From the NCBI GenBank assembly GCA_030247885.1, contig JAPDRO010000001.1, positions 310,001-374,000 on the forward strand: a stretch of DNA of 64,000 bases, given 5' to 3'. This DNA is from Taxawa tesnikishii (nom. ined.) (taxonomy: Eukaryota > Ascomycota > Dothideomycetes > Dothideales). A model generated the notes under the pieces. That model had not been told where the DNA came from. It searched no databases and worked only from the letters and a program-made list of their open reading frames with translations. The position numbers and the translations under genes are program-made. Shown here one piece after another: positions 4,454 to 60,768 of this stretch; within the stretch, counting starts at the first letter, position 1; the number at the start of each line of letters is the position of its first letter.

Positions 4454-4777
4454 CCTACGGAGGCCTACAGTGACTTCGAAGTCCACTCGTTCTCTGTCCA
4501 TACCTATTCATGTTACACAACAACGGACCTGCCTTCTGTTCAAGACGTATGTGAATCCTAATGAACCCTCTGAAATACCGAGAGACGACCACAACGAGAC
4601 ACACGAACTGGATGAGCGCGCCCAAAACCGAATGATCCTCACCAGTCTTGGCTGTCCATCTCCCTCCCTGCCTCTGCCTTCCGAATGATCCTGCGACCTC
4701 TCGCTCATCCCCATGCACGAAGACGTCGACGGTAGTGTATATTCGCATGACGGTGTTGAGGCGGCGCAAGGGCTTCC

Positions 4778-7700
4778 ATGACGCCTACGCCTCAAGGACT
4801 TGGGCCCTCTGTGGGTGTCAACGACCACAGGAACTTACTCCAACCTGCCCGGGTTGGGAAAGATGCACGCTCACTTTCAACCACAAGCCTTGCGCCAAAG
4901 GCAGCATCCTATGCCCCTTCGGCTCCCCGCCTGGAAGCTTTGCATCCGACTTCAAATCAACCATCTCCCGGACTGAGCGACCTAGACAGGAATCCACCAA
5001 TGATGGAGGCTACGATGAAGCCGCCGACCTTACAACTTCGGAGCAGAGGCAGGCGGAATATCGGGATCGCATTGAGAAAGAGACGAAGATTAAGATTGGC
5101 TCCGAGAACTTGTTGGAGGCGCTGAATGCAAAGAATGCCAAGCAGACAAGAGATCAAAGGCGGCTGGTGGAGTCGGAGTTGAACACATCAAACAGGAAGA
5201 TTGCACAACTGCGGTTGGATCTGGAGGCCGAGATAAAGAGGTCCAAGGAGCAGTTCACAAATCAAGGAAGCCGGCTCTCGCAGTTGTTCCGCAATGCGCC
5301 CGTTAGGTCTCCCGTGCAGCCGACCGAGTCAACGGATGGTATTTTTCAGGAAATCGAGTCCGACTCCGAGTCTCCGACCTACGTTCTGGCAGAGATTTTA
5401 CAAGCATTGGAAAGCGAGGAGATGCAGGCGGAGTTCTACGTTAATCACGCGAACGAGCTGGTAGCACTCTTCAAGCGGCATCCTACATTGAAGTACGACC
5501 TGGTATGGTCCATCTTCGGTCTTCGCATGCAGACGATGCTGTTGAGTGACAGTCGCGAAGTGGTAGCGGCTGCATACAGAGTGATGCGCTACGCTATCAC
5601 AGACCGCAAGTCACTCCAGACCATTAGAGCCCACCATACGGACGATCTGGTCATTTTATCTCTGGTAAAAGAAAGCAAAGCCAGCGTCGAAAGAGAACAG
5701 GCTCTCAAGTTTATGCGCGCATTTCTGGACGTCAAAGATGGGGTCCACGAGATAGCGCCAGCGGTTGTCCGCATCCTTGTAGCTGTGGCCGAGCATGGTG
5801 ATGATCGGCTGCGCAGCATGTGTATCATGACTCTGGCTGAACTACTCATTCGAAGTCCGGATTTAGTTGTTCAAGCCGGCGGCATCGGTACGCTCACTGA
5901 TGCCATGGGAAACGGACTCTATCACGCCCCTGAAACACTAGCCAACGCCTTCCTACATCTTCTGGACCTGCCTGCACGGCGAGGGCTTCTACGCTCAGGA
6001 TTCGAGTTAAGCGTGCCATTTGCTTCTTTCACGGAGCCTTCGACCTCACATGCACACGATGAGCGGCTTAAAGCTAGTGCCAAAGTTGTTGCGTTCCTGT
6101 TCAAGAGTTGGTCTGGATTGATGACCCTTGCTCTGCATGACTTCCTTCCAGTCAAATCCGTGGTCTCTACATTGTACGTGAACACGGTACCTGTCAGAAC
6201 AGCAATCCTGGAGCTGCTCTTCGACGTGCTTAGGATAAAACCTCCGTCGTGGTCCACTTCTTTCCTCGCCGGTAGGCGGCTTACGACCTATGGACGGGTC
6301 ACAAACCTCAAATCAGGAGATCCCAGACGTTCGAGCGTTAGCACAGCGGGGGACACCACGCAGACCACGGATGACACGACACAGAAGATGAGTTTGGTGG
6401 ATCACTTTGTGGCCGTCGTCCTTACCTTGCTTCTCAAAGAAGGCTTGTTGGCTGCGTTGCTGCACGCCAAGGCCGATTCGCCCAGTCCAGCATTAGAACG
6501 CAAAACGACACTGCTGATAGGAGAAGTTCTCAAGCTAGCGAACAAGCTTCTTCCAAGCAGTTGGAGCTCCGATCTACAAACACTGCCATCCTTGTTCCAA
6601 TCGGCCACAGAGTTTGGCATCGATGAGAGGTTCAAGTCAGTTGCTACAGTCTATCAAGTTGACAGCGTGAATCGGACGTTGTACCGTTCCGGAGCTGGAA
6701 ACTCCAATTTCGCCAAAGCAACCGCTAGCATAGAAGGGTACTCCTCCACAAAGCCGTCTGATCAACCGAAGCTGCAACTTAGCGCAAATATGGACGAAAC
6801 ACAGTTCCGGAGCCTTTTGCTAGAAAGCCAGGTCCTTAATACGGTCAACTACGCAAAGTGGCGATGGGATCTCATTCAGCCGATGATCGAAGGTCCTTTG
6901 ACAAACCCGAAGCGTCTGGATGAGGCAATGAGGGCGACCAAATTCGTACATCGACTGCTCAGCTTTCTACGACCTTTCAAGTTCAGATTCTCTGATGCGA
7001 AGAACACCAAGCCCAATCAAAGATACGTGAGAGCAGGTTGCGCTCTAGTACGGACGCTGTTGCAGACCGCAGAGGGTGCAAAGTATCTGGCGGAGAACAA
7101 GCTCCTTCGACAGATCGCGGAGTGCCTGGCGCAGTTCGATCGCTTGAGCGGTATCACTTCTGCCACCCCTTTGTTCTCTCCTGAACGGCTCGCGGATACT
7201 CTAGTAGGCGGCTACTTCGCCATCCTAGGAGAGCTCTGCAGTGACCAGAAAGGTCTGCAAATGATGGAGAGATGGAAAATCATCAACATGTTTTATCACA
7301 TAGTCGAACTGAAAGGCAGGGATGATTTGATAAGAGCGCTTCTCTCGAATCTGGATTACACATTGGATAGTCATCCGCGGATCATTCTGTCCAAAGCCAT
7401 GATCTCTGGCTCGAAGGGCGTAAGGATGGATTCTACCCGGATACTACGCAAGTATGCCACCGGCCCTCTGGAGCCAGGCTCGAAAGCGGGTCCAGGTGGT
7501 GAGTGTGCTATGTGGGCAATCCGGCTGCTGGTCACGCAGATTTATGACCCGGAGATCGAGGTCTGTGAAATCGCGATCAAGATTCTCGAGGAAGCCTGCA
7601 ACGACATACGATCACTAGAGTACGTCGTCAAATGTCGACCTGCGCTGGATCACCTGGGCGAGATTGGTGCGCCGCTTCTGCTTCGATTCCTTTCCACCTC

Positions 7701-8791
7701 TGTGGGATATCATTATCTGGATGGACTAGACTACATCACAAAGGAGATGGATGATTGGTTCCTCGGTCGCAACGATTCTTACGTCACACTTGTGGAAGCA
7801 TCACTTGCCAGGGCGCTTGCGGATGTCTCAGAGAAGCCGGTCTCTGTCTTTGACGAAACGCCTGAACCGCAAGAGTACGGCTTCGTACCTCCCCATTTTT
7901 ACAGAGAACTCACCAGGACCACCGAAGGCTGTGAACTGCTCAAAGCCAAAGGCCACTTCGAAGAATTTGCCTCCACGATCAAGGATTGCGGGATGGAGGA
8001 CGAAGACCCGGAGATGATTCTCAAAGTCAAGGGCTGCCTCTGGGCTGTCGGCAATGTCGGATCGATGGAACTTGGTGCACCGTTCCTCGAGCAGACCGAC
8101 GTCACTAAACGGATCGTCGAAATAGCAGAGAAGTCTGAAGTTATGACCCTGCGCGGAACGGCCTTCTTCGTCCTGGGTTTGATCTCTCGCAGTCTGTATG
8201 GTCAGGAGATTCTAGCAGAACTTCAGTGGGATAGTACGGTCAACATCATGGGAGAGTCGTTGGGCTATTGCATGCCTTTGCAGTTCAACAAGTTGTTCTC
8301 CGTAAGTCTTTGTGTTGGGTGCCTTCTTTGCCGAGTATTGGACACTGACACGTAACAGATACAATCATGGGCTACTCCATCCTCGCCAGATCCGCTGATG
8401 CTTAAGGGCCGCAGCCCGCCCGAGAAAGACGACGACCCGATGAACAACGACATCCTGAAAGCTGTAGTCAAGCTGGGCAATACGGTGCTGTCGAACAAGG
8501 CCGCAGCAGACCTCAACAGGTTTGTCCATGAACTCTACAGTTCCATCTTAAGACCAAAGTCATGCTGACATATCCCTTAGCTTCAGAAACAAGAAAGCAC
8601 CCGGCCTCCACAAGCCAGCTCTCTTCCACAAGGTTATGGCTACCCTAGCTTCCCACCATTACCGGCTACCGGCCTGTCGCTTTGTCATCGATCTCTTCGA
8701 TAAGAGCGTTATGCGGAAGATTGTGCTCGAGGAAAACGAATCCGATACTGATGATGAGCCGGATGAGGATGAGGATTCGCGGCTGCAATAG
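4778..8791 (+). CDS. TORC2 subunit Rictor homologue (Ste20/AVO3)
   Basis: Scaffold subunit of TOR complex 2, which controls AGC kinases, actin and membrane stress. Exons are 4778-8301, 8359-8519 and 8581-8791; about 1298 residues. Residues about 98-165 form an HR1-like coiled coil (AEYRDRIEKETKIKIGSENL), followed by the Rictor N-terminal repeats, a middle domain near 690-800, CAMWAIRLLVTQIYDPEIEV near 910 and the conserved RICTOR_V block (GCLWAVGNVGSMELGAPFLE) near 1085. The tail ends in an acidic DDEPDEDEDS stretch. The N-terminal 70 codons read naturally from the ATG at 4778 in a different frame from the main ORF. One base seems to be missing near 4992-5002, after which NDGGYDEAADLTTSEQ follows. 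The same-frame start at 4648 gives a Cys-rich, unlikely peptide. Confidence 0.93.
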
Positions 8792-11184: not shown

Positions 11185-12764
11185 ATGGAGTCAAGAGCAC
11201 TCGGCAGTACATGGCTGCTGAAGCACAAGGGCTTACTTTGGCCTGCAACTATCGTTGGAGAGGATGACGTCCCCAAGGCTTTCAAGGACGCTTATCTCTC
11301 CCCGGGTTACTTTCGGCCTGTTCTCATTCTAGGTTCCCACGAATTGTAAGTAACGATTTCAAAGCACGTGTCCAAGACAGGCAAGACGTCAAGGCTAGCT
11401 GTGAAGTCTTCCAATGCCTGCTCCCACAGGCAGACTCTGTCGCAATCCGGTTCAGGAGAGGGAAGTTGCTCGTTGACTAATTGGACGTCTAGACTGTGGT
11501 GCAAGCTAGTCGATCTGGTTCCCTTCGACCCTTGTCATGACTACGTGGCCGAAGCCCGTACAGCTGGAGATTCTGAGAATTTCGGGCAAGCGCATTGGGA
11601 AGAGTATGAAGATGCTCTCAGAGAGGCAACGACCTTCCCGACACTGGAGGCTTGCAGAAAGATGATCGCTTCCAAGGAGGCAATTCGTAAGATGGAGGAT
11701 GATGACAGCGATGTAGAGATCACGAAGATCACTACTGCGAAAACAGCGAACAGTGAGAACAAGACTCTAAGGAAGAAGCGCAAGCGGAAGGAGCTGCAGC
11801 CTCCAGGATCAAACACGACGCCTACTAAGTCAAACGAAAAGGATGGTGTTAACTCAGAAGATGAAAATGCAACAAAACAAATGCAGGAGCAGCCTCACGA
11901 GTGCCGCGAATGTGGGGAGCGGTTCACATACTTAGGCAGGCTCGAAATGCACCAGCGTATTGCCCACACGAACGGAAAGCACGAATGCGCCGAATGTGGG
12001 CAGAAGTACAGCCGCAAGGACACTCTGAAGGATCATCAACAGAAGGTTCATAGTCAACCAGGACATAACGTAGACAGCAACCCCGATGAGTATGGTTTCG
12101 CTGCAAGCACTGTGCGCAGAGGCTGACTACGCTTACAGGCATTCTGTAGTCGCTATCCGCTTTGGACAAGTGAAGGAATCTTTTGTGCGAAGGAGTGCAA
12201 TCGAGAAGTATCCACCCTTCACCGAAAACATTCGAGATGACGAGAACGGTGGCTCGTACATCAGCACACAAGAACTGCGGGGGAGCCTGTCGGTGTGGAC
12301 GCTTTCGGAGCAGTAGTACAGTTTCTCAACGAGGGAGACTTCGAACCACGACTCATCGAGCGCGGCCAGAAGGATCTTCTCGAAGGGGCACTGTCAACAA
12401 GGAAGAGGACGTCCCACGTTGGGGAGAGGTTTACTGCGTCGCTGCAAGCTTAGGGATGGAGGACCTTCAAACGCTGGTGTGCAAGAAACTCAACGCAATG
12501 ATCGAGATGGCACCTTTGGACATTCAGATATTCCTCCAGCTGGTCAAGATTATCTTCAGAAATCAGCACCGCGAGACACAGGTCGATCGGGACCTCCGAC
12601 TACACTTGAGTCACTCTGTTGCAAGCAGGTACTACGCGCTGATGGACGGTGCGGCGTCAACGATGTGTCGAGTTATGAACGATCACGAAGATTTGGCGCA
12701 GTATGTGCACTCGCAACTCGCGAAGAACCCGAAGATGGGAAGAGAAGGTTATGAAGATGATTGA
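11185..12764 (+). CDS. PWWP-like, two C2H2 fingers and BTB domain protein
   Basis: A probable chromatin-associated adaptor; no named orthologue is known to me. Exon 1 (11185-11345) plus the start of exon 2 (11493) give a PWWP-like module: WLLKHKGLLWPATIVGED, then PVLILGSHEL joined to LWCKLVDLVPFD. A shorter intron ending at 11429 is the alternative. A Lys/Arg-rich linker (KKRKRKE) follows, then two C2H2 fingers (CRECGERF..., CAECGQKY...) ending near 12050. A 49-nt intron (12090-12138) with GCTGAC and CTTACAG leads into a BTB domain: VAIRFGQVKESFVRRSAIEK, DAFGAVVQFLNEGDFEPRLIE and VYCVAASLGMEDLQTLVCKKL. The BTB part is broken twice by one missing base, in the G runs 12279-12283 and 12385-12388; restored length is about 461 residues. 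It could instead be two adjacent genes with a BTB start at 12086. Confidence 0.65.
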
Positions 12765-13540
12765 GGAGGAGTGGAGGGCCGGAAATCAAAGACCCCACGA
12801 TCTGCGGACAGAGGGACGCAGTTCGGGGCATCTTGACGGTTGACGCTATTGCTGTCTTCCAACGTCCATTAGCTTCCCATATGGAGCTCAATTCCACACA
12901 AATTTATGCACCATAAGTCCAGTGCAAACGCGCATGTCGTAGCGGGAGTGCGTGCAACGGCAGGCCATACCAGATAAAGGGATACGGGATACGGGATACA
13001 GGATACGCGGAGGTAGACAAAGAAGCAAAGACAAAACAATGTAGGTCAAGCTTTCACTGGTTGAGAGTGTTTCCCAGAAGCAGGGAAGACGGCCAATAGA
13101 GAGTGGGTGCAGCGCGTGGAATGTACAAAAATAGACCAAAAAGGGTCTGGTGGTCCCTCCGCTGGCCGCGCAAACCCGAGCGCTTTCGAGCTGGTAGTGG
13201 TTTGCATCATAGTGCGGGCTTTCGGTGGGAGTACGAGGCCTCTTGTACCTGCATATCGCGAAACATTCCCCAACTGCTCGGCTCTTGTTGAGCTTCCTCT
13301 TATAAGTCACTTGTCCACGCATTGTTCTGTTTCTCTCCCATTGGAACGCTGTTGCGCATTTTCCCTTCTGACACAAACGCCGTTTTATACATACAACGCC
13401 ACGGATTCGGTCAGTCTTCTTTATCTGACCGGCTAGCCACTCGCTCGTCTGCTGGATTTTCCTATAAACTTTTCATGCCTGGCACGCGACGTGCCTGGCT
13501 ATCCTTGCAGATCTCTGTGTAGGCCGTCATAGCGATCAAC
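12765..13540. other. Intergenic, with a short GGGATAC repeat
   Basis: Upstream region of the CSC1-like gene. A 7-bp direct repeat, (GGGATAC) about three times plus a variant, lies at about 12978-13008. No gene was recognised; ORFs on both strands overlap and lack family features. Confidence 0.55.
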
Positions 13541-16520
13541 ATGACACCAACCACCACCTCTCCCATTCTGCCGCGGCAGTCCTCGAGCCAGCTGGATACC
13601 TTTGTAGGCTTGTTAGCCAGTCCGTTCGCTAGCAGTGTAGGTCTGCCCGGGGAAACGGAGATATCAGGAAGCCATCATTGACAAAACGCAGTTCACGCAA
13701 TCCTCCTTCCTCGCGTCTCTGGGCACGTCCATCGGCAGCACAGCCCTTATCGCCGCAATATTCTGCCTTCTTCGACCCTACAATGCAGTCGTGTACGCAC
13801 CTCGGGCGAAACACGCCGACGACAAGCATGCGCCGCCACCGGTGGGGAAAGGCGTGTTTGACTGGGTTCAGCCAGTGCTCAGGACGAATGAGCAACAAAT
13901 GGTGGAGAAAGTCGGCTTAGATGCTACACTCTTCCTGCGCTTCACTCGCATGTGCCGGAACATTTTCCTCGTACTCACCATAATCGGCTGTGGTATCTTC
14001 ATCCCAGTCAACATCCTCGGTGGCCGAGCATCGCAGGCTCAAAACTGGAACGCAGCGTCTACTTTCTCGAAGTTGACCCCGACCTTTATGTACGGCAGCA
14101 GCGCTTTCTGGGCATACGTCGTGACGGCATACATTTTCGATGTTGTCATCTGCTATTTCTTGTGGCAAAACTACAGGGTTGTGACGAAATTGCGAAGAGC
14201 CTACTTCGACAGCCCGGAATACCAGGCCAGTCTTCACGCGCGAACACTCGTTCTCACAGACATACCAAAGGGACTGAGGACTGACGAGGGAATCGTGAAA
14301 CTCACGGAAGATGTGAAGAGCGTCGGAGAGACACCACGAGCTGCCATTGCGCGCAATGTGAAGGACCTTCCGGAGCTCATCGAGGAGCATGAGGATACAG
14401 TCAAAGAGTTGGAAACCGTCCTGGCGAAATACCTGAAGAACCCGAACAAGCTCCCTCCAAAGAGGCCAATCTGCACGGTTTCGAAGAGCGACCGCTCGTA
14501 CAAGAAAGGTCAAAAGGTGGATGCGATTGAATACTTGACGGCACGCATCCGTGAACTCGAGCTTGAAATAAAGGAAGTGCGGGAATCTGTCGACAAACGT
14601 AACGCCATGCCCTACGGCTTCGCGAGTTACGAGTCGATACGCGATGCTCACACCGTAGCGTACGCTGCACGCAAGAAGAGCCCACAAGGAGCGATCATGC
14701 GACTCGCCCCGAAGCCACATGATCTGATCTGGAACAATCTACCAATGTCCAAGAAACAACGCAGATGGCAGATATTCGTTAACAACATCTGGGTGACCCT
14801 TCTCACGGTCTTCTGGGTGGTCCCCAACGTGCTGACGGCTATTTTTCTTGCTAACCTGTACCACCTTGGTGAGGTGTGGCCTGCCTTCATGACTGAACTG
14901 CAGAGGCATCCAACTTTCTGGGCCATCGTTCAGGGTGTGTTATCTCCAGCAATTTCGACGCTCTTCTACTATTTCCTCCCTGCAATCTTCCGGCGGTTGT
15001 CGGTGCGCGCCGGTGACATCACCAAGACCAGCAGAGAGCGGCACGTTATGCACAAGCTGTACTCGTTCTTCGTTCTTAACAATCTGATCGTGTTCACATT
15101 CTTTGCGGCGGTCTGGGGCTGGGCCGGCACTCTGGCAAACAATCTTGACCAACATCAGAGCGTATGGGATGCCATCCGCGGTGCTGACGCTTTCAACCGG
15201 ATTGTGCAAACGATGAACACCGTTGCACCCTACTGGCTCTCCTATCTCCTTCAACGCAATCTCGGTGCGGCTGTGGATCTTGCCCAGGTTGTAAACTTGG
15301 CCTGGGGCTCGTTCTCTAGGCGATTCTTGAGCCCGACACCCCGGCAATTGATCGAACTAAGCGCACCGCAACCGTTCGACTATGCTGGCTACTACAACTA
15401 CTTCCTCTTTTATTCGACAATCGCCATGTTTTACGCACCGCTGCAGCCACTTGTGCTGCCGGTCACTCTCTTCTACTTCTCCATCGATTACGTTCTGAAG
15501 AAGTACCTGTTGCTTTACGTTTTCATTACCAAGACCGAATCAGGAGGCCAGTTTTGGCGCGTCTTGTACAACCGATTCATCTTTCTGACTCTGCTGGGCA
15601 ATGTCATGTTCGCTCTCATAGTGACAGCTCAAGGCAACAGTTGGGGCATGCTGGCCTCGCTTGCTCCTCTTCCTTTCCTGCTTCTGGCCTTCAAGTGGTA
15701 CTGCGCCAGGACCTTCGACGACCAATGTCAATATTACATCAAGGGTCGCCACGTGGACGCCGAGAACGGTCTGCCATCCAAGACAAGGCGTGGCGACAGG
15801 GTCGGAGTTCGCTTCGGCCATCCGGTGCTCTACAAGCCTCTCATGACGCCTATGGTGCACGCCAAATCCCAACATCTCCTTCGCACGATCTACTCTGGTC
15901 GCACCTCTCTCGACATAGACAACCAATCCGTCGCCGGCTACTCGGACGTCTACATGGACCCCATGTCCACGACCCAGCCCGGCAAAGCCGCCAACCCGCC
16001 CTCGGCTGCCCCGTTCGAGATCGTCACCGAGAACCAGCTCGACTTCGAGCATTACAAGAACCGACCCGAGTTCCGCGACCAGCTCGGAGGTGACGGCGAG
16101 CTCTACGGACGCCCCGCCGACCTCATCCGCCCAGGCACGCCAGGCTCCTTCATGACCGCAGACGGAACCGTCAGCGGCGGCCAGTCACGCAGTGGCAGCG
16201 AGAGCCGCGACAGCAGCATGACTCGTGTCGGCGACGGTACCACCTACCCTCACGGCTACCACAAGACACCACACATGGGACGGGACCAGAGCCCCGCCGG
16301 CAGCGTGCAGAGCGTGGACGTGGGCGGCGTGCGCGGTCGAACCGAGGAGGGCTACAACAGTCTGCTGCAGGGAGCAGCACGCATGGGCAGGAGTCCGCCT
16401 GCGCCGACACCGGGCGGTTACGGCCCCATCAGGTTGGGCGGAGGCGCGTATACGCCGGGCGAGACGCCCGGTGAAGAGGATACGAGTTATGATTATTTCA
16501 GACGCGGCAGGCAGATGTAG
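13541..16520 (+). CDS. CSC1/OSCA-type calcium-permeable stress-gated channel (DUF221)
   Basis: A plasma-membrane cation channel of the TMEM63/OSCA/CSC1 family, opened by hyperosmotic or mechanical stress. Exon 1 (13541-13636) and exon 2 (13692-16520) are joined over a 55-nt intron with a TTGAC branch site; 974 residues. The order is typical: an N-terminal membrane region (FLASLGTSIGSTALIAAIFCLLRP, then two further segments by about residue 165), a cytosolic PHM7-type domain (about 175-340) with ARTLVLTDIP and FASYESIRDAH, and the pore region with seven or more membrane segments (about 365-660). FYYFLPAIFRRLS and APLQPLVLPVTLFYF are characteristic. The long Ser/Gly/Pro-rich tail (about 700-974) is cytosolic. 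The frame is intact throughout. Confidence 0.93.
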
Positions 16521-17466: not shown

Positions 17467-20400
17467 TTACGCCGCAGGCGCAGGCTTGGATGCGGCGGCA
17501 CCCTCATCCTCCACATACTTGTCCCAGTTGGCAAGGATGTTGCCAATCTTGGGGCTGTTGGTCAACCTGTACACATCCTCAAAGTACTCCTTGGTCAGCT
17601 CAAACGGCCTGGCGGTGACGTTGGGAATGTATTTTCCGACCAGCTTGCTAGGGTCGATGCTAGTCTTCTGAATCTTCTTGAGCAGGAAGCTGCGGAAGGG
17701 TTTGACACCGGAGCGGAGGAAGGTACTGTGGAAGGGTACGTCGATACCCTTGAGTGGAATGGTGGCGAAACCACGCTGCAGATCGAGCGGCTTGGGCTTG
17801 GCTTCGGTCTGCTTGGCGCACTCCTTGATTATCTCGACGAGATGCTCCTTGACGTCCTCCAGAGACATGGTCTGCATGAGCTGTTGAATATCAATCTTCT
17901 GTGCCTTGAGGTAGTTTGTGACGTTGGTAAGGCAGTCAAGGGCTCGGAGGTCACCAGCAGCAACGTATTGCATGTTGGCGATATTGTAATTGACAATCTC
18001 GAGCAACCAGCCAGTAGTCTCCGCAATGTTCTCGACAACGTATTGAAGGGCCTGCTCGTTGAAGGTCTTGGAGATACGGGAGGGGTTAACCGCGCACATG
18101 GAGTAGTTCGACCGGCCGGTCTCGTCACGCTCGACAGCAACCTGCATAGTCAAACCACGATAGAACACAACGGAGACCAATGACTCGATAGGCATAACCT
18201 CAGCAAGGGCAGCAAGAGCAGAATATTCGCCGAGAGAGTGACCGGCGAAGCTGCTATCGCGTTGAACAAGACCCTTGGTACGCATGTCCTCGAACGATGC
18301 CTTCTCCATCAGAGTAAGGGCAGGTTGCGTGAATTGCGTGGCGGAGAGCAGACCAGTTGGCGAGCGGTAAGTGTACGACGTGGTGTTCTCGTTGATCTCC
18401 TTGAAGATCTTCTCTGACTTGATGCTGCCATCGGAAGCAACAGTCTCGAAAGTCATGGCCATATAGTTCTGCCGGATAGCCTTGCCGCGAGGACCGCCGA
18501 AGTGGATAGTGAGTTCCCTGGGGTTGTTCTTGACGATGTTGGTAATTGCGAAGCCTGCATCAGATGTTAATATCCTGTATAGTGGGCCGAATGAATCGAT
18601 AGACTTACCATAGTTGTCAAGGAAGTGCTTGTCGGCACGATCCCAGACCTCCTTTGCAACCGGGCTGCTGGCATACAATTCCATACCCATGCCCTGCTCT
18701 TGCGAACCTTGTCCAGTGAAGACGTAAGCAGAAACAGGTTGTTCTACCTCGGCCTCGCCAATCAGAACCTTCTCCTCCGTCTCCTTGTTGCTGGCCTCAA
18801 CCTTCACGATCTTGCGACCAGAGACCATGCCCACGTGCTGCAACCTAACCTCGATGATGTCGTCAGGAAGAACCATACCGACAAGGGACACATGGAAGCC
18901 TCGAACACGGCCGATATTGTTCTCAGCAGCCCAGGTCTCGACCAGGCTTCTCACGGCAGCGCTGGAATACATGCCGTGAGTGATAGTGCCTGGGAGGTTG
19001 GCGTACTTCGAGAACACACGTGAAACGTGGATAGGGTTGTAGTCGCCAGAGACCCTGGCATATGTCTCGTTGGAAGCAGGTGCTTTTAGTTCGAGAGGAG
19101 TCTTGCCGTTTAATGGGATAGGGTTCTCAAAGTTCACGGGCTGATCGATGGCCGAGCCGAACCGCTCAAGGTAGTCCAGGACAGGGTTGCCGTGCGAAGT
19201 TCCAGCGTCGTACTCGACGGAGGCGATTTGGATGACCTCCTTGCTAGGCAGCTCGAGCTCGACTTGACCCTGGGTCTGCACAGAGCTAAAGAGGGTCTTG
19301 TTCTTGTAGCGGATCAGGCTCTGCAGGCGGAAGGTGAGCGTCTGACCGAGCAGGTCAGTGTCGGGCTCGTCGAGACGGAACCACTCCTTGGACTGCAGCA
19401 CAGCGACATCCTTGGAGGTAGCAAGGTGGATCTGCATTGGCTTCTCGGTCTTCCTCTGGAAAGTATTTTCAAAGTCGGTGTAAGCGCCACGGTACAAGAA
19501 TTGGCTGGTAACTTCCATGACGGGCTTGCCATCACGAGTGATAGTACCGCAGACCTCGACCATCTTTCCAGAATCCTGGTTGATAACCGCGTTGACCTCG
19601 GCGGTGGTGTCGAGAACGTCACCCTTCTTGAGTGGCGCAGCACCTGGGATCATGCGGAAACCGTTTGACAAGTGAACAAGCTTGAGGAGATCACCGTCAA
19701 TGGTTCGGGGAAGATGGGCTTAGTGATAGCCTTCCAGCCGACGACAATAGCAAAGTCCATTGGCGCAAAGACCTCCTTGCCGGGACGGTCAACGAATGCC
19801 TCACCGGTATTGCCAACAGCGTGAACGAAGTCATTGATGGCTTCACTCGTGATGGTAGCGCGGCCACCGTCGAACCGAGAAGTGACCGGGGTGTCGAAAG
19901 GCACAGAGTCCTCGCCGAACCAGATCTTGTAATAGAACTCCTTGATGCGGTCGTTCCTGGCGTCCATGACTTCTCTGATGGGAGCATAGCCGGTTTCAGG
20001 GTGGTAGGTGAAGCGCAATGGGAGTGCAACGGACTTGTGGGTAGCAGTGCGGTCCTCCATGAGCTTCACGACAATCTCGCCGTTGGCGACCGGGCCAACT
20101 TCGACTGTTTGAACAAGCTTGCCATGAGATGGCTCCTTGACAGTGATGATAGTCCGCTTAGGGTCATCGGGGTATGCAAGCTCGACGATCATGCCAGGTG
20201 TAGGGGCAAAGATCCTGTGCATTGGGTTGGTCTGGAATCTCTGGCCTTGAACGAACACATCGGCAGTGAAAAGGCGTGCCTCCAGGAATAGCTCTTCCCA
20301 GCCAGGATAGACATCCAGGAGTCGGTCGGGGGCAGAACTGCATTCGGCGAAGCAGACAGACGGTAGATAATCTTGTTCTGGAGTTCGGACACGTTCAGGC

Positions 20401-23400
20401 TCTCAACCTCCACCTCATCGCTGGCCTCAAGAAGCTTGCCGCCGAAGTACTCGACGGTTGGGATCTTGGACTCGTCACCACCGTAAACGTCCTTGATCAG
20501 ATACTTGATGTGGCCCTCGTGCACGCCGTCAAGGATATCCTTGATAGGCTCGTTGACGATCTTGCAGTATTTGGCCGCCATGGGTCCCTGCAAGATACAG
20601 ACTCTGCCGACATCCTGGTCGACAACTGCATCCAGGTCCTCGGATTGCCACAGAGAGTCCTTCTTGAAGAAGAACTCGAAGCTCTCATCAAGGGCTGGCA
20701 CGAACGGGACAGGCTTCTGGCCCCGGCGCTGGCAGAGGAGGATGAAGTGCTGAACATCCTGAGCGTTAACGAGTTGTTTGTTGGCCTCAGGGAATGTCTT
20801 CAGAACCTTCTCGACGAGTGGGAAGGGGTCGTCAAGCTCGGCGTAGTTCTGGACAAGCGAACCCTTGCCTTCATAGGTTGTGAAACGCTCCTCAACACGA
20901 CGAATGAAGTCGCCCGTAAGGCGAGCAAGAGTCGGCTCAATCCAGCGCTTCTGGTGCTTAACGTACATGAGGTCCACCATACGGCGGATGATCTCGCCGT
21001 AGGTCATGTCCTCGAGGTCAACGGACTCACCAGCAGAGTTGCGGCCGAACCACACCTTCTGGAAGTCGTCGTTGAGTTTCTTGATGATGTACTCGCGGTT
21101 CTTCTTAAGCTCGGGGATACGCTTTGCCTTGTCCAAGCTGAAGATCTTCTGGTCCATCTCAGCCCAGAATTTGACACCGCGGGTGGCAACCTTGTGAATT
21201 GGCTCTCCCATCTCGGAGCGGACGGTGATGATGCCGCCAGCAGGACCCTTGTAAGTCTTCTCCCACTCACTATCGTCCAGACCCGGAGCGTCCACAATAG
21301 CCTGCTTCGCAGCGAGGGAGGTGTGGGCTTCCTTGGCGGTCATGACACGGCTTCCAAAGAGGAAACCATCGAATGGCATCGGTGGATAGCCAAACTTGCA
21401 CGCCCACTGACCAGTCAGGTAAGGGTAGGTGTCCTCGGCTCCACCGAAACCGCTACCAGCGATGAGAACGAGGTTCTCACACTTACGGATCCTGCCGTAC
21501 ATTTGCAGGATGGGCTGGTGCATGTCTTCGAAAGAGTGATGGCCGCCACCACGGCCTCCGGTCCACTGCATCATAACTGGGAAGCCAGGGTTCGCCCTGG
21601 CGATGTTGATCGTAGCTTGAATTGCCTCGACCGAGCCTGGCTTGAAGGCAATGTGCTTGATACCAAGAGTCTGAATGTACTCGTTGGCAACTTCAATTGA
21701 GGGCACGCCAGCACCGATGGTCAATCCCTCAATTGGCACGCCGTCGGCGCGGAGTCTTGCAAGCATTGGAATCTGCCATGCCATGGCCCTTGGGGCGACG
21801 TAGATGAGGTTGACGGTAATACCACGTCCAGCAGGGATTTCCTTCTCGATATTGGCAATTGCCTCGCTCATGCTCTTGTCGTTGTAGTATCCACCGCCTG
21901 CAAGCTCGATTTCGTAACCAGCGTTCATTGTTGCTGCCACGAAGTCCCATGGAACTGTGCAGGGCGTCATACCAGCAACCATAACAGGGGCAAGCCCAGC
22001 ATGCGACTCATCTTCGTGTCCACGAAAGTCTTGCCAACGGATGTGCGCGCAAGCTTGGGACCAAACTCTTTGACCCAGTTGGTAGCGTACTTGACTGCGT
22101 GCTCGGCGTCGCGATCAAAGATCTCGGGCTTGTATCCGACCTCGCTGTTGGATGCATCCATGGTGCCTGCAAGGATCACACGGACGCCGGTACCTTCCTT
22201 GTTGCGGCTGGTGAGGACACCGAGACCGGAGATACCACCAGGGCCAAAGTCGAGAATGTGGGTGGCCTTGGGGAAGACAGTTGCCTTCTCCCAGTTCACG
22301 GGGTCACGGGTGATCATACGCACAAGAGCGGGCACGATGTTGGACACTCCCCTTTGCGCACATCCTCTCCGCTGTTGGTGTCGTAAACCGGAATGTCAAG
22401 GCTCTCGCTGGAGATGACGATGTCCTTGAGGTCTTCCTGCAGGTGATCGTAGGCTTCGCTCAAGTATTTGCTGTGGAAGGGTGCTGTGATAGGGAGGAAA
22501 CGGTTGACGAAGCGGATCTTGCGCTCGGAGAAAGGAATGCGTGTCTGGTCCAGACCGGTTGGTGCCTTGACCTTGCGCAATCGGAGGTTAAGACCGTACA
22601 GAGACATGGGCGGACCGGTTACGACGAAATTGCGAGCGCTGTTCACCAAGGAGATGCCGATGTGGCGGTCCTCTGGCAGGTACTGGTTGGTTGCGTCGAT
22701 GTGGCCCTGCACCACCTCCCGGGACAAGTCACGGACTGACAACATAGGCGTTGGCCCACCCTCACCACCCTCAATCGAATCTTGAAGAACGGAAGGTGCA
22801 AGTGCCGTCCTCGGGTAGGCCTGCTGACTCCTAGCGCCCATCCAGAAGAGGATGGTCAACACATTTCTGGATGCGGTGTCGAAGGTCTCCCAGTTGCGGG
22901 ACGCAGCGATGGCAGCTGCAGTCACCACACCTTGGGAGTGGCCGGTAGTACCGCTTAGGCGGTCCCGGACATGGCCAGGGTGAGTTCCGAGAACTCTGCA
23001 GGTCACCACATAGTGTGCCAACTGGGTGAGTCCAATAAGCGGGAAACTGACAGGCGCTGAAACCAGGTAATCCGTGTCTGGTTGCGAGTCCTTGTTGTGC
23101 AGCCATCTCATCACATCCAAGCCCTTGGAGTACAACTTCTCGACTTTTGAGTTCCGGGAAAGCTGCTGGAGGTGCCGTGCAGCCGCCGTCACGAAATCCT
23201 CGACGAACGAGGGGTATGTGATGTACAGTTCCCGCAGCTCTTCAAAGTATTCTTCGATGTTTCCCTGTCCACCGAAAATGGCGTAGATGTATGCATTCTC
23301 GTCGGATGCCTCGCGCAAGAGTGCCGACTCGTGCGCTTTGATGGGCCTGTTCACCGCAGCTCGTGCAGCATAGTATGAGCGGACTGTGATGAGCTTCTTC

Positions 23401-23780
23401 TCGGTGATGCCCGGAAGAGAGGCCGCAAGCGCGTGGACCTCGTTTCCACGAAGGTATGCACGCTCGAACTCGTGCAGAATGAGCTTGAGCACCTCCTCGC
23501 TAGAGCCCGGGTCATCGCCCTCGTCTACCTCCTTAGCCACGAAGCCGATGAAGCGAGCAACCAGCTCAGGAACCGATGACGGCTCATCGTCTTGAGCGAG
23601 CTCATCTGTGGGTGTTGGAAGGGTGGCGTTGAAGGCGTCCTTGAGTTGCGAGGCGCTGAAATGGAGAGCGGTGGGTATCAAAAAGGTAGACTCGAGAGAA
23701 CCGTGGGAGAGGATCAGAGGGCGGGAGACGGCTTGCGAACGGGGAGTAGATACACCCGTCTGGGCGCCGGAGCCGTACAT
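17467..23780 (-). CDS. FAS1: Fatty acid synthase subunit beta (FAS1)
   Basis: Beta chain of the cytosolic type I fatty acid synthase. Domain order is acetyltransferase (GHSQG, Ser at about residue 282), enoyl reductase (about 560-900, with [17 protein letters not shown]), dehydratase with a MaoC-like hot-dog region (about 1300-1650) and malonyl/palmitoyl transferase ([11 protein letters not shown], Ser about 1832). One in-frame intron, 18555-18608, leaves 2087 residues, normal for the family. The reading frame shifts four times, each by one missing base in a run: C4 at 22349-22352, G4 at 21987-21990, A4 at 20269-20272 and G4 at 19707-19710 (plus-strand bases). Conserved sequence resumes immediately at each point, so these look like assembly errors. 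The start MYGSGAQTG is at 23780, head to head with FAS2. Confidence 0.97.
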
Positions 23781-25433
23781 GGTGGAGGAAGTGTGTACAG
23801 TGGAAAAGCTGTTGCGATGGGTGTCAGTCTCGTTGTCTCGTGGTGGGTTCTCGTAGCTGCACTCTGGCCTCTTGTGCAGGCTGCCGCCAAAACCAACACC
23901 GCGCTCGTCAAGCAGGGTGGATCAGTGGCGCCAACGCAGGATCAATGGCCTGGTGGCACACTCGTGGGTACTTACCGGAGTGATTAGTGGACAATGTCGG
24001 GCCAGGCAGTCATGTAAGGAGCGACAATGCTAGTCTGGCAGAAAATGAATTATCGTGGTGCCCCAAGCTCAGGCCGAGCTTCAAATCCCAGACAAGATAT
24101 TCGCGGGGAAGGCACGGGAGCAGGCGATAAAGAGCGTGTCAGATGGGTATACTGAGAGGACTGAGAGGGCTGAGAGGCTGCCTCGAGGGGTAGAGTCGAG
24201 ATGAGGTAGCAGCAGAGAGAGGCGTGGGTAGAAGGGTGAAATGCCGGATAGAAGCGTTTCTAGAATATTATTGGGCTTTGGAGCTGGGTCTGGCAGACCT
24301 TTGAGCTTCGCTGCCGGTTCACGCGCGCCCGCACGCCGTTGAATGATGGTTGACAGGGATTGCCGCTTAGCGTTGGGAGCCTGCAGCTCACTCTCTCTGC
24401 CAGAACTTTGCGTGACAGCTGTCCACAAACACAGGCAGAACGAGATGCCTGTCAGCAAGCACAGGCTGCGCAATGCACACGATATCAGTGTTGGGCGTGG
24501 CACAGTCGGTCTACGGCGGCATCGTCTGCACTCTACAGCACGTGTTCGAACTGTGCATGCCACTTCTCCACAGAAGCCAAGTTCCCTGTCTCAGGGTCCC
24601 GCGAGGTCATCTGCTTCGGCTACAGCCAGGCTCTGTGTCATAAATGACATGTTTTCCCAGGCAAAAGCATTATGTAGGCAAAAGCATTTACGTAGACCTA
24701 ATGGTGATGTAGTTCTGAAAGACGGGCTGACACGGATGCCCACAGAGAGAGACACTCGAAATTCTGGAGATGGATCTCTCGTGAACAGCGCTGTGGATTT
24801 TTTCTTTCTTTTTTCTCACGGCTTCGGATTCTGCTTCTGGTTCTAGGTAGATACAGCGGTAGCGGTTGCTCAAGGGCGGAGCCTCTCTTCCAAACCGCGG
24901 TCCTATAGCGGTCCCTTGGGGCGCAGAACAGCATGCATGGTGCAAAGAATTGTGGCCCCACGCTCACTAAACATGGTCAAGCTCCTTCGGCTAGTGTTGG
25001 GCCGGCTGGCGCTACTGCTGGGATTCAGCCATCTGGCCTGCATCCGTCTTTGCGGAGAGCATATGTACAATTTTGCCCAGCAGCAGCTCCTCACACGAAA
25101 GTGCAGCTCACGATAATCCCTCGTCTCCCCAACACTCCTACCTCTCCACGCCACACCTTCTCGTGTTGCGTCTCACCAATTGATACAGGCAGCAACCTAC
25201 ACCCTGCCTCCCTTTATCCCGCACTTCCTGCTCGCCGAAGTGTCTGCAGCTACGACAGCCTTCCAGAGCTCGGAAACCTGCTCGACCATACCCTCCTTCA
25301 TTCCTCTAGATACCCTCATTATACCTCTTTTTGTCACTCGCACTCACATCACGGCGCATAGGGTTTGCCATTGAACTAATTGCTTCATTCTCTTGTACAG
25401 TACTCTTATTTTCACCACCTCGAGGCAGACACC
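23781..25433. promoter_or_regulatory. Shared divergent upstream region of FAS1 and FAS2
   Basis: 1653 bp between the two FAS start codons, which face away from each other. No gene was recognised within it. The arrangement suits coordinated expression of the two subunits, which assemble in equal numbers. I did not identify a specific transcription-factor site with confidence. Confidence 0.65.
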
Positions 25434-53488: not shown

Positions 53489-56400
53489 TCACCAGAAACT
53501 GCACCAGCCCATGTAGTGCTGACATAGGTTCTCGAGATTAGTCGCCTCGCTCAGAAGTCTCTCGACCTGCTCTTCTATGCCAAGTTCGACGTCCTTTTTG
53601 AAGTCGCGCCCCGTCAGCTTCTCCTTGACGCGAGCCAACACTTGCAGTGCGCGCGCGTTTTGCTCCTCTTTGGCTTCGTTGTCGGGGCCATTCGGCTGCT
53701 GTGCGACGCTCAGACGGCCGCGATTAGGGCGACTTGAGGTGCCTGGTTGGGGAGGTCTCCCATGATAGAACTGCGGCGCGCGGAGGGGAAAGAGGGTTCG
53801 ACTGGGGAACCTTTCTGGCCGAGTCGCCATGTGAGAAGGGGATCGTGGATGAACTGAATTCGCAGTCAGCTTCTATTCAACATGTGCTCCCATGAGTCAC
53901 TTACGGCTTCCAACACAGCAACTAAAGAGTCCTTGTTGTGGCGGATGAGCCTCATGACATGCTCACACGATGTCCGGTATGTGCCTTCGATATTGCTGAC
54001 CTCCATGGCAAAGGTGAGCATTCTTGTCAGACGGAACGGCACGCGCTCCGGGTATTTCTCTCTGTGCATTGCCACCTCGAAACAGTCACCAAAGTCGATG
54101 TGGATGATCTTTCCAGTGTGTTTGTCAAGCATCAGGTTTGACGGATGGCGATCTCCCAAGCCCAGAATGTAGCCCACCATGGACATGACACCAAGCGAAC
54201 GGGTGTAGTTTGTACGACGCTCCAGCCAAGCTTCGGAGCTCTTGCTCTTCAGCCAGAGCACGCGGTACAGATCCTGCCCGGTGGTGTTGTCGAGGGCATA
54301 CCCAAAGACTTCCACCTTCTGCATGAGTGTCAAGTTCTCATAGTCGGGTGCCATCTGCAACATAATCCGGTGTTCGATATTAAGCAAAATCTTTCTGTTC
54401 TCACGGTACTCGCGGATCAAGACGTGCAGGGTGTCACTGTTGGGGACCCACGCAAGCATTCCGGATTGAGTCGACAACGGAATTGCAGCATAACGCTGGA
54501 TATTGAGATGACGCTTCAGACATTCGGGATCGTTCGCTAGCAGTGTATTCACGAGGCCGAATAGCTGCATCACACGCTCATCCTGACGGATATCTTCGTG
54601 TCCCTTCAGAACGAAGGCGTAGATGCGACCATCGCTTCCTTGTAGTTCGATCTTTCTCGGACGCTGCTTGGACTGAATGACATTGGCCACTGGCTTGAAG
54701 GACACAATGGAGACGACTTTCTTGCCGCTGTGGTAGGTGCCCGGAATGGCGAGCTCGAGATCGTGGACGTTTTTGAGCTTGGGAGACACGTACTGCAGGT
54801 CTAAATTTGAAAGTTGCGGCAACTGTCTCTGGATGCGTTTGAAGACGTTGTAGTAGAGATCCCAAGCCTGGTTCAGATCGGCACGGTCTCCCGATTGCTT
54901 GTAGGCGTTGCACCAATCCCTAGCTTCTTGCAGATCTCTTCCAAAACTCTGTATGAACGATATCTCACGGAGTGTCTCCGCTCCTTCGTCCAGCATTCTA
55001 TGCAAAGGCTCAAGAGTGTTGAGCATACCATGGATATCATTGTCACCGAAGAATAGTCTCGAGGCTTCTTCCAACCCTTCGTGCCACTGTTCATGCCAGA
55101 GCACCGCGATACGGATGAGTTCGTGGCTGACAGTGACCGCTTGCCGGCAAAGATCCGGACTGTGCTCTTCCATAGCGGCAAAGACTTCTCGCGCTGCTCT
55201 TGATCGAGCGGGATCATCTGATTTGATGGAAACACTCAGTGGGTAGACCAAAGCCTGAGGGTGTGCTTTACCGACATCGCAGAGCAGGTTGTGGATGCCA
55301 TCTCTGACTAGTTTGTTGGGTTGGTTGATACGTGCGATGAGCTGCGGCATGACTTCCAACCAAGTGTCGACGCTAACGGTGGCAATGCCTTGCTGAATAG
55401 CCGCAGTGACATCCGGGTTATGTCCGTGGGCAAACCACAAAGTCAGCAGCCGAAGAGTGTCTTGCAGCGAACTTGCAGAGTAAAGCTCGATCGACTTGAA
55501 GAACCCCTTGATGGCAGGGATGACATGCTCGTAAACAACATTCGCGGTCACCTGTTCCACGTCGGCGTGCGTAGTTTGGTTAGTCGCCACATTGAAGTTC
55601 GCCAACGCCCAAGAATGCCACGCTTTGTACCAATCCTTATTGTATCGTGTAGCCTGGTGATGCGACTGTAAAATTTCATGAACATGGTCGTCACCGCGGT
55701 ATTGGATCGCGAGCCAATCACCCTGCTTCACGTAACAGCGTGCCAGCAGCCTCTGCCACTCCGCAAGCTGTGCTGCTTCCTTCTGCGGCGATTGCGTGCC
55801 AGGAAGCAAGCCCACAAAATGTGAGCCGTTGACGCCATTAATTCCGTTCGCATTGGGGTTCTGCAAGGCATGTATCCGTTGCTCGTAATCGTCGCGAAGT
55901 CTGCTGGTAAGATCACGTAGACCGGCTAGCGCCATGTGGGAGTAGCCGTTCGCCCACATGTACTTGAAGACCGCATATTGTACCGGATAAGGAGCCTTGA
56001 GGGCCTTCTCTTGCGCTTCCGGCGTCATCAGGCTGCCATGAGACCCCAGAAGGGAGTTGAGTGATTTCTCCGCAAGCCCGTTACGTTGAGCTTTCCGGCA
56101 TATGCTGGCGAACTTGATGTACATCTCCATGTTTTCCGTTGGGGTGATGACAAGCGCGCGGACCTTGAGCATGCGCTGCCACACCTCAACGTTGCGCTGA
56201 CAACCCTTCAACCGCTTGCTCCAAGTATGGCGCATACGCTCCTGCTTCAGAGGGTCTTGTGCGTTCTGCTTGTAAGTGATTATCTCTTCAAGCTCAGCGA
56301 GCATCTGCACTCTGACCACAACGCCGTAGGCTCTTGTGTAGGACTCTCCGAGAAGCGCACTCAGCTCAGTGTCCAGACCGTCTCGCGCCATCTTGATATG

Positions 56401-59400
56401 AGCGTGTGCATCTTCAAACTGGTTCCGATGAATGGAGAGGATAGCACCAAAGAAAGAACGATCCGGCGAGTGTAGCTTCATCACCGACAAGTAGGTATCC
56501 ATAAGCTCCCATTGACCCATGCCCCAAGCAGCGGCTGCGGCCAGAGCAGCAATATTTTTGCGGTTCTCCGAGGACGCTTGCATCCATTTCTCTTGAGCGA
56601 GAGAAGAGAGAACATCCCACTCACCCAAGGCGTGAAGACAACGCATCTTGCCCATAATGACTTCAAATGAGCTTGGCTCCTCTCTTTCACGCCTTTGATA
56701 GGCAGTAAGAGCTTCTTCCCATCGTTGCAGCTTCTCGAACCAGGTTTCCTTGATCTCAACGTCGGCATAGCCCTGCGCTTTCCGTAGGATACCGAACGCT
56801 GCGTCCGTCTGTTGAAGCTGGTTGTTGATACTGATGAGAGCCTCGACAGCGCTGGCGTTCTGCTCAGCGTTGAACTCGAGCTCTTTGTAGTGTAGGGCTT
56901 TGGCGAAAGCGTGGCACTTTGCCGCATACATTCCGAGCGTGCGAACATCGATCGGCAGGGCCTTATCATCATGCTCCATGAACTCTGCTAGATTCAAGAG
57001 TATCTGGAGGATTTCGGGCGGTATGTGAGGAGAAGTAATTGCGGTCTCGATCGCGCGGACGAGCTCTTCCTGGTATTGATCATATAGTTCTGTCCAACAA
57101 GAGATGAAAGCAGAGTTGAACAATGTCCGGGCGATTGGGCTGTAAATGTTGGCCAATGGTGTGCACGCCCTCAGCGCCTGCTGAGGCGACTCTCTAAGAA
57201 GCTCGACGCTGAAGCGGCGTATCCACTCCTGCCAATCCTCCTTCGTGGACTTGGCGGAAGCTTCCCAGGCATTTTTAAGATGCTGCTGGTTGACAGCAAG
57301 CTTCTTCGTCGCAATCTCAGTATAGATCTGGTCATCATCGTCATCGGCATATCGCTCGCTAGGGCTCAGGTCCTGCGGCAGAGGTTCGCCCTTTTGTAGT
57401 TTGCTGACAATCAATGCATAATTCGCGTGAGGTACCTTGTGCATAACCAGAATCTTGTTGATGGTAGGGACGAAGTGAATGTAGTCCGGCCCAAGCTGGA
57501 AAATAAGCGCACACAACGTTTCGAGAGCGGCTTGTTTCAGGTTGTTGTCGTGTCCAGCCAGCACTCGAGAGAGAGGGTGGATGATCTTTGCAGCGAACTC
57601 AGAGATGTTGACCTGCCGCGACAGCTTGCCAACAGTCTCAATGGCCACTTTTCGTATGCTTAAAGGCTGGCCAGGCTTCTCGAATATGCGCACAATGACC
57701 GGAATGATGAGGTGCATGTATTCCTCAGCACTTGAACCAAACACGAGGAAAGCATGCAGCACTCTTTCCGAAGGCAGTCGACGCGGGGTAACGTCTTGAT
57801 CAAGAACCCCCAGCATGAGAGGGAGGATACTTGCAAGGTAGATCTTGAATTCGCCCTCTAGCGAGCGTGCTATGGCCTCAATGAGAGACAGCATCGTTGG
57901 CTGATAAGGTGAGTTCTCAGTCCAGAAGTCCTGAACAGTGAGCAGGATCTCTGGAAGGAATGGCCGGATGTGCTGCCGGACGATCCGAACAAGTTGACTG
58001 AGCTGATTGAAGTAGCCTTCCACCCGTCCAGCTGGTGCATCACGGATCACTAGCAAAATCCCGGAGACGACTTGCCGTAGGAAGCTGACGCATTTCAAGC
58101 CCATAGTAGCGTAGATGTTCATCACTGCGTCTACAGCAGCTGAGTGGTACTGTGCAAGTGTTGGCTCTTTCAGCATATCCATCAGAGTGTTTATGACCAT
58201 TGTCGGATAGTAGTCTTCGTGTGACGGGGTCATGCCCTCTATCATTAGGCCAACATCTGTGATGGTTTCGGATTCCGCAGCAAGCTGACTCTCTGGAGAC
58301 TGCTCCATAACCTGGTGCTTGTATGGATCAAAAGCACCAAGTATACCCATGAGCCTAATGGTTTCTCGTCGTAAATCTCCAGGCGGCTCCTCTCTGACGA
58401 TCTCTACCAGAATGGTCAGAAGCTCGGGGTGCTCCGTGTACGGCTCAATAACATATCCAGAATTGCTTGCAAGTTGACCAAGAGTTCTGAGGGCCGCCAT
58501 TCGCTTAGCGACAGATCCAAGATCCTTGAGACTGTCTATGATAATCTTCATCAGCTCCGGGATGTATCGTACCATATCCTCGCCGCCAACAGTCGCGAGG
58601 TCACCTATAGCTTTGAGGCTGGTCGCAGCGACCTCTGGGTTTGGATCCTGGGTCTTCGGTAACAAAACTGTAACCATTGGGTCGACATAAGGCTTGATGA
58701 GCTTTGAGGATGCGCCCACCAGATGACTGATCAAGCGGGCGCTCTCTTCCTTGTTGCGCGCACTGTTCGAATATTCAATTTCCGTCAGTAATTGAATAAG
58801 GACTTTGCGTAGTGAGGGGAAAACGTAGGCCGGGTTGACGGAGGTCAAGCGCCCAATGATTGTCATGGCGGCCTCTCGAATAGGCAGAATCTCATCGTTC
58901 AGCGCAAGGAACAGTGTCCTGACGTTCTCAGCCTTTGCAAGGTGGCGGTCGAAGCGAGTGTCCAGCGACATGAGGACGGTACAACGGATGTCCGATTCGG
59001 GATCTGCAACACCAACTGTGAGGAGTTTCTCGATAACATCGCTGACAACCTGCAGGGAGTGGTGACTTGTTTGATAGACTATCGGATCCCGGACGAACAG
59101 CTGACAGCAGGTGAGGGCAGCAGCTTTCCGGATCTTCGGATCGTCATCCTCTACGTATCGAATCGCAACGTCTCTCACGAACTCGTTGAGGACGTGACCA
59201 GAGAAGTCGAAGCTGCCTAAAGTGTGCAATGCAAGCGCGACTTCAGCATCCTTGTGGTCAAGATGCTGTGGATCCCGCTGATCTCGAACTTCTCTTGTGT
59301 ATATAGGTGGCAGAGGAGCGCCATGTGTGGGGTGGCCAGGAAGTTGAAAGGGTCTCCCACAAAGAACCCTACTAATCAGATCGAGTAGCTTTTCCTGGAT

Positions 59401-60768
59401 TGTGGGTTTCACCGGAGGGATGTAATGGGCCATATCAACCAATGCCTGAGTGAGAGCGTCGCTGAGGCCGCACGCAAAGATGGGATCGAGTAAAGCCTCC
59501 ATGTACTTGCTCAAGGTCTGCCCGACTGCGATAGAGATCATACTGATGCATTGAAAGATGGGTGCCTCGTCGGTGTGTTTGCCGCGCTGTTTGAGACTGA
59601 GCGCCTCTCTGATATGGAGTAGAATATTGTCCAGGTAAGGGGCAATCTGGCTTCCAACAGCATGTGCAATGTTGCCAATAGCAATGAACGCCAGGTTTCG
59701 CTCCTTGGGCAGCTTCAAAAGTCCTTGAAGGTGGGACATTGATCGATGAATGTAACCATTGCAGAACTCCTTCGGGGCATATCCAGCCAAAATAGGAATG
59801 ATGACCACGACCTCCCGCTTTATGAGGGGATCTCTGTGCTCTCGATACGACAATATCCTCTCGCAGGCATCCTTGTACCGCTGGCCATGCATGAACATGC
59901 CACCTTTGAGCAGTAACTCTTTTAGCGTCAAAAGGGATCCGTGGACCGTCTCTACCGTATTGCTCTGGAAGCCCTTATTGAGCTCGTCGTATGTCCTGGT
60001 GAGCCAAGTCTGTCGAACTTGAGGGTCTCTGGCAGTGAGAATCTCAAAACACTGGCTCACAGTCTGGGCTGCGGATTCCCGAATCATGACCTTCAGATCC
60101 CGCAGGGCGACCCAGATGACCTCCAGTATTTGAGGGACCCAAGCGTACAGAAGTGTTGACGAACTACGAGCCAGCTCTTGCAAGATGAGGACGGCGGCGA
60201 AGCGACGATTCTCGTTCCTCTCTATCTGTAGCCATTCTAGAGCAAGCTTAACTTCCGCATCCACAAGCTCGGCGGTGAGAGTTCCACCCGGGGCGACCAG
60301 ACGTCCTAGTGTCTTTGCAGCGACCACCATAGCGGCGGTGTCGTTCCCCTTCATGACATTGCGGAGTATATTGTGAAAGCGCGTGATCTTCTGCGCTGCA
60401 TCGTCGCCTTTGAAGTCAATGAGCTGACCCAGGGCGTACAGTCCACCGGTCCGCTCGTGGGTATCGTTTCCATTTTGGATGAGGTTCGTAACTCGACTGT
60501 GTACTTCGGAAAGGTAGGGGGTGAATTGGTGGGGCGGTAGTTCTGTGGGCTCCGTTAGTGGTCGTGAGCCTTGCAAAGATTGTTCGGGTGCGACCTCTGT
60601 AAGCAGATTCGACACTCTGCAAGAGACTGTGTGCGGCGCGCTGGCGGACCTCGTCGTTGCTGTGATTGTGTGTAAGTGTCCCTGATTGCTTGCTGCCTTC
60701 GACTTCGCCTACCGAGACCTCAACTCCGCGGTGGTCCTCTCGAGCGCATCGCGGTACGCCTGCATCAT
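53489..60768 (-). CDS. TOR1: TOR serine/threonine kinase (PIKK)
   Basis: Nutrient-sensing kinase at the core of TORC1 and TORC2. Four exons: 60713-60768, 60595-60659, 53905-60542 and 53489-53853; about 2374 residues. The two small 5' exons supply MMQAYRDALERTTAELRSR, NDEVRQRAAHSLLQSVESAYR and then ELPPHQF, matching the TOR N-terminus; an ORF-only reading would start at 60615 in intron sequence. HEAT repeats fill about 40-1200 and FAT about 1250-1750. The rapamycin-binding FRB holds EEASRLFFGDND near 1860. The kinase domain carries GLGDRHPSNLML near 2170 and IHIDFGDCFE near 2190. The FATC end is LENLCQHYMGWCSFW. The last exon lacks one base in the G4 run 53749-53752. Confidence 0.97.

Follow-up and report, generated by a model that had tools for sequence, protein, structure and literature searches.

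Does the stretch from 11185 to 12764 encode a single protein in which a PWWP domain, C2H2 zinc fingers and a BTB domain follow one another, as the initial annotation proposed? The window in which it lies, 64,000 nucleotides of contig C1, is part of a genome assembly of 29.4 Mb in 34 contigs. The three regions do follow one another in the proposed order on the plus strand, and a single gene, in one form or another, is the probable arrangement, a grading that reflects our judgement and was not computed. It is based on Pfam matches to PWWP and C2H2, an intron place shared with another PWWP gene of the genome, a candidate second intron, positive codon usage across exons 1 to 3 and the score of the 3′ part against a BTB profile. 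The BTB identity and the joint that leads to it are both weaker than had been claimed.

Exons 1 and 2 and the PWWP domain

Exon 1 (11185–11345, plus strand) carries the start codon and the first half of the PWWP domain. It is open in frame 1, where its codon score is 0.21, the other frames being negative; scores are in bits per codon, with modest margins, and the codon-usage model behind them had as its training set seven in-frame stretches comprising 7269 codons without a stop. Exon 2 (11493–12089, plus strand; 0.18 in frame 1) supplies the rest of the PWWP domain, a basic linker and two C2H2 fingers. The two exons are in frame once intron 1 is removed and give a protein of 264 amino acids. 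On both flanks of the gene codon usage is negative in all three frames. The upstream neighbour is a RICTOR-type gene, for a TORC2 subunit, at 4636–8352 on the plus strand, and the downstream neighbour is a CSC1-like channel gene at about 13541–16520. The same 64 kb that holds the RICTOR-type gene also holds a TOR-type kinase on the minus strand (53869–60708), with its FAT, FRB and PI3/PI4 kinase domains within 53869–57600.

Intron 1 (11346–11492, plus strand, 147 nt, phase 2) has a GTAAGT donor and a TAG acceptor. The acceptor is one of four in-frame choices and was picked because the PWWP domain then has no insertion; the donor is identical in all four, so that the place of the intron is fixed by the donor. 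The check proposed for the N-terminus, a comparison with PWWP profiles, gave a borderline result. With the whole 264-residue protein Pfam scored PWWP (PF00855) at 24.0 bits (E 5.6e-5), and with the first 112 residues alone at 25.5 bits (E 1.9e-5), just under the curated cut-off of 25.6. In a phmmer search of PDB sequences weak PWWP matches were obtained to five chains, of HRP2 and NSD3/WHSC1L1, with E-values from 0.031 to 0.79.

The strongest evidence for the PWWP identity is the gene structure shared with L028 (C33:852500–856500), the one further PWWP gene found in the genome. This gene gave the one genome match in the PWWP family search (C33:854115, 52.9 bits), and its first part scored 44.9 bits for PWWP in Pfam. 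Its intron (48 nt, phase 2, the best of three stop-free options) interrupts the same codon as intron 1, also in phase 2, the sequence before the intron reading GTNE in L028 and GSHE here. A direct BLASTP comparison of the two PWWP regions was weak (E 0.059), the L028 piece used in it stopping at the intron of that gene. The 11185 locus is absent from the match list of the family search, presumably as a result of the interruption of its domain by the intron, and other split PWWP domains could likewise escape such a search of the genome. The downstream pieces of L028 are charged and match Med26 weakly (E 0.13, under the cut-off); this match may represent a TFIIS/LEDGF-like helical domain.

The PWWP domain had been described as a reader of methylated histone tails, a role that appears doubtful for this copy. 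An aromatic residue of the FFFG strand of NSD3 belongs to the methyl-lysine cage. In the alignment of the PDB sequence with the predicted protein, PVFFFGSH of NSD3 lies against PVLILGSH, so that FFF reads LIL, while the tryptophan of LLWP is kept. Judged from this replacement, methyl-lysine reading would be difficult to assign to the protein.

The C2H2 fingers and the joint to the 3′ part

The C2H2 fingers were recognised by Pfam (PF00096) in two stretches with 36.3 bits and an E-value of 5.8e-9, passing the cut-off of 25.2, and both read C-x2-C-x12-H-x4-H in the translation. The linker between the PWWP domain and the fingers contains KKRKRK, a run of the kind seen in import signals.

The joint between this exon and the BTB-like part is ambiguous and can be read as splicing, as an extra indel in a continuous exon or as a separate gene starting at 12086; the first two would each yield one fusion protein. 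For splicing, the candidate intron 2 (12090–12138, plus strand, 49 nt, phase 2) has the signals GTATGG, CTGAC and TACAG, and its removal converts frame 1 to frame 2. The intron pattern with a GTATG donor has this candidate as its sole plus-strand match in the window, with one further match on the minus strand, against an expectation of 0.75 per simulated strand from 20 first-order simulations; for the looser GTANG donor, 7 and 11 matches were seen where 3.45 were expected. Introns of similar length occur in this genome, at 48 nt in L028 and possibly in the fatty acid synthase beta gene FAS1, where a 54-nt in-frame stretch, absent from the top PDB homologue, is a candidate. The second intron thus has the good splice and branch signals ascribed to it, but it is insecure, since its codons resemble coding sequence when read in frame 2. 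The score of 12090–12138 in that frame is 0.38, and for the 16 codons of 12092–12139 it is 0.28; scores this high were obtained from 54 of 2720 noncoding starts as compared with 53% of 3273 coding starts.

This coding-like score speaks for the likeliest of the alternatives, in which there is no second intron, exon 2 simply continues, and an additional assembly indel at about 12060–12090 shifts the frame. Such a gene would still encode a PWWP–C2H2–BTB-like protein, and further frame changes nearby and in FAS1 are in keeping with it. It would, however, leave the splice, branch and acceptor signals, at the only plus-strand match in the window to the strict GTATG type, to chance, and we consider it rather unlikely. 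Because this reading is also one gene, the likelihoods given to the alternatives overlap with that given to a single gene.

Somewhat less likely again are two genes, the first a PWWP–C2H2 gene ending at the frame 1 stop at 12124–12126 and the second a BTB-like gene starting in frame 2 at the ATG at 12086. Frame 2 is open from 12074 and the coding-like codons of 12092–12139 would then belong to the second gene, but the arrangement requires the two genes to overlap by 41 nt on the same strand and a promoter to lie inside the C2H2 exon, and it leaves a consensus-like intron at the joint unaccounted for. We favour one gene in which the C2H2 exon is joined to the 3′ part, possibly by splicing, with the proviso on codon usage given above.

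The BTB-like part and its frame changes

Beyond the joint no single frame stays open through exon 3, a feature not mentioned in the initial annotation. By codon usage it passes from frame 2 to frame 1 to frame 3 and then probably back to frame 1, with clear changes near 12280 and 12400 and a probable one near 12735. On the plus strand the BTB-like sequence accordingly comprises segment a (12139–12280, frame 2, codon score 0.12) and segment b (12285–12398, frame 1, 0.22), each with a break near its 3′ end, and segment c with a helical extension (12404–12725, frame 3, 0.19). After the probable change a possible C-terminal tail (12745–12843, plus strand) scores 0.09 in frame 1, the other frames being negative. 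Position 12764, where the gene had been taken to end, is the stop of the frame 3 stretch, and the frame that codon usage selects next runs to a stop at 12841–12843, which makes an end at 12764 doubtful.

Identification of the 3′ part with a BTB domain rests largely on a profile made for this genome. Pfam gave no match to BTB (PF00651) at E-values up to 10, whether the pieces were searched separately or joined by X, the domain being split over three frames; the sole Pfam match to the pieces was Fumarate_red_D (E 0.11 to 0.12), which falls below its own cut-off and was set aside. Searches of PDB sequences with this part returned no BTB chain, the matches being at chance level (one at E 0.46 and three at E 0.25 to 1.2). 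A profile compiled from the genome's own BTB segments, 13 in number, scored the X-joined query at 10.8 bits in hmmsearch, where one of 2000 shuffled sequences was higher (11.3) and the best chunk of the window reached 5.4 bits. With hhalign a 141-residue version of the query scored 27.55 against the profile (probability 36.9%), above all 400 shuffles (best 19.68) and all 204 window chunks (best 21.49), although, with two of the nine source stretches of these chunks not in frame, the control is weaker than one of 204 proteins. Both alignments take in the second half of the BTB domain, that is, segment b and the start of segment c. The first half, in segment a, lies outside both and resembles BTB by eye; since the alignments are limited in this way, the part is termed BTB-like.

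Two related fungal BTB proteins of the same genome, L014 (C1:1411703) and L015 (C1:2079644), lie, like the window, on contig C1 and are 57% identical over 123 amino acids. They have a pattern like LEYLYKGDY-PRL followed by VVYCTAERFGLEEL, to which VVQFLNEGDFEPRL and VYCVAASLGMEDL of the present locus were likened by eye. A search with the L015 segment gave nine matches, the 11185 locus not being among them. The frame 3 piece matched itself alone in a search of the genome, and its structure was modelled as helices with low confidence (pLDDT 41.6).

Introns that preserve the BTB-like pattern cannot be accommodated at the frame changes of exon 3. A 65-nt intron at 12256–12320 was considered by eye as the source of the first change and rejected, as it is without a clear branch site and would delete part of the pattern. 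A comparable case is FAS1 (17470–23921, minus strand), which contains four frame changes, again with no room for introns. Its homologous stretches change frame in succession at 19707/19710 and 20273, and by eye a middle stretch from about 22350 to 21990 lies in a third frame. A 750-residue piece of FAS1 found itself as its sole match in the genome. Growth should depend on FAS1 where it is the sole copy, and its breaks are therefore likeliest to be assembly indels. By extension from FAS1, assembly indels are also the most likely source of the changes in exon 3. The assembly thus probably carries indel errors, and gene models in it, that of FAS1 included, can be broken by indels. Against this stands the uneven spread of the breaks, the FAS2, RICTOR, TOR and CSC1-like training stretches being open.

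Decay of the 3′ part into a pseudogene, with at most the PWWP–C2H2 protein still made, is the least likely of the alternatives: two clear frame changes and a probable one within about 0.7 kb, next to open exons 1 and 2 and with breaks spread unevenly, would suit it, but codon preference persists in every piece and FAS1, with its one genome match, is broken likewise in the same window.

Our preferred interpretation remains one gene, in which the 3′ breaks are most likely assembly indels, as judged from FAS1, where breaks occur in a gene expected to be needed. It would encode an N-terminal PWWP domain related to that of L028, the basic linker, the tandem C2H2 pair and, at the C-terminus, the BTB-like domain together with its helical extension. 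The product would be expected to be nuclear, the PWWP domain and the two fingers together holding it on nucleosomes or DNA, and the BTB-like part may dimerise or recruit a partner, for instance Cul3 or a corepressor. The whole might then act as a chromatin-bound adaptor or regulator. We regard this reading, with all its parts, as evenly poised between right and wrong.

Domain order and relatives

All three modules are known singly, and their combination in one protein appears unusual. It had been suggested that no standard fungal family has this order, and it was indeed not met in the literature searched, several long lists of results having been viewed at the top, nor was a second instance found in the genome among the matches listed, where none of 19 BTB matches lay within 10 kb of the L028 PWWP domain or of 12 other matches to exon 2. 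Scans of the viral_contigs and genome_contigs collections gave no relatives; these collections are not meant for fungi and so have no bearing on conservation.

In animal ZBTB regulators the BTB domain is N-terminal and the C2H2 fingers are C-terminal. The present protein would have BTB and C2H2 modules in common with them, in reversed order and with a PWWP domain added. HRP2/HDGFL2 and NSD3 are the best, though weak, PDB sequence matches for the PWWP domain, and differ in that their FFFG strand is LILG here; to our knowledge they have no C2H2 or BTB partner. Fungal proteins with a single PWWP domain include Crf4-3 of Neurospora and Ioc4 of yeast (PMC11774033). These share the PWWP domain with the predicted protein, and no C2H2 or BTB module is reported for them in the available part of that source (PMC11774033).

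It would seem reasonable that L028 is the counterpart of Crf4-3, which would make the 11185 gene a second PWWP gene. Tentatively, a usually single PWWP gene may have gained in this lineage a second copy fused to C2H2 and BTB modules in an undescribed domain order, whose PWWP domain would have lost methyl-lysine reading and would hold nucleosomal DNA. If this is true, such a duplicated and fused gene would reveal the way in which new chromatin adaptors arise in ascomycetes.
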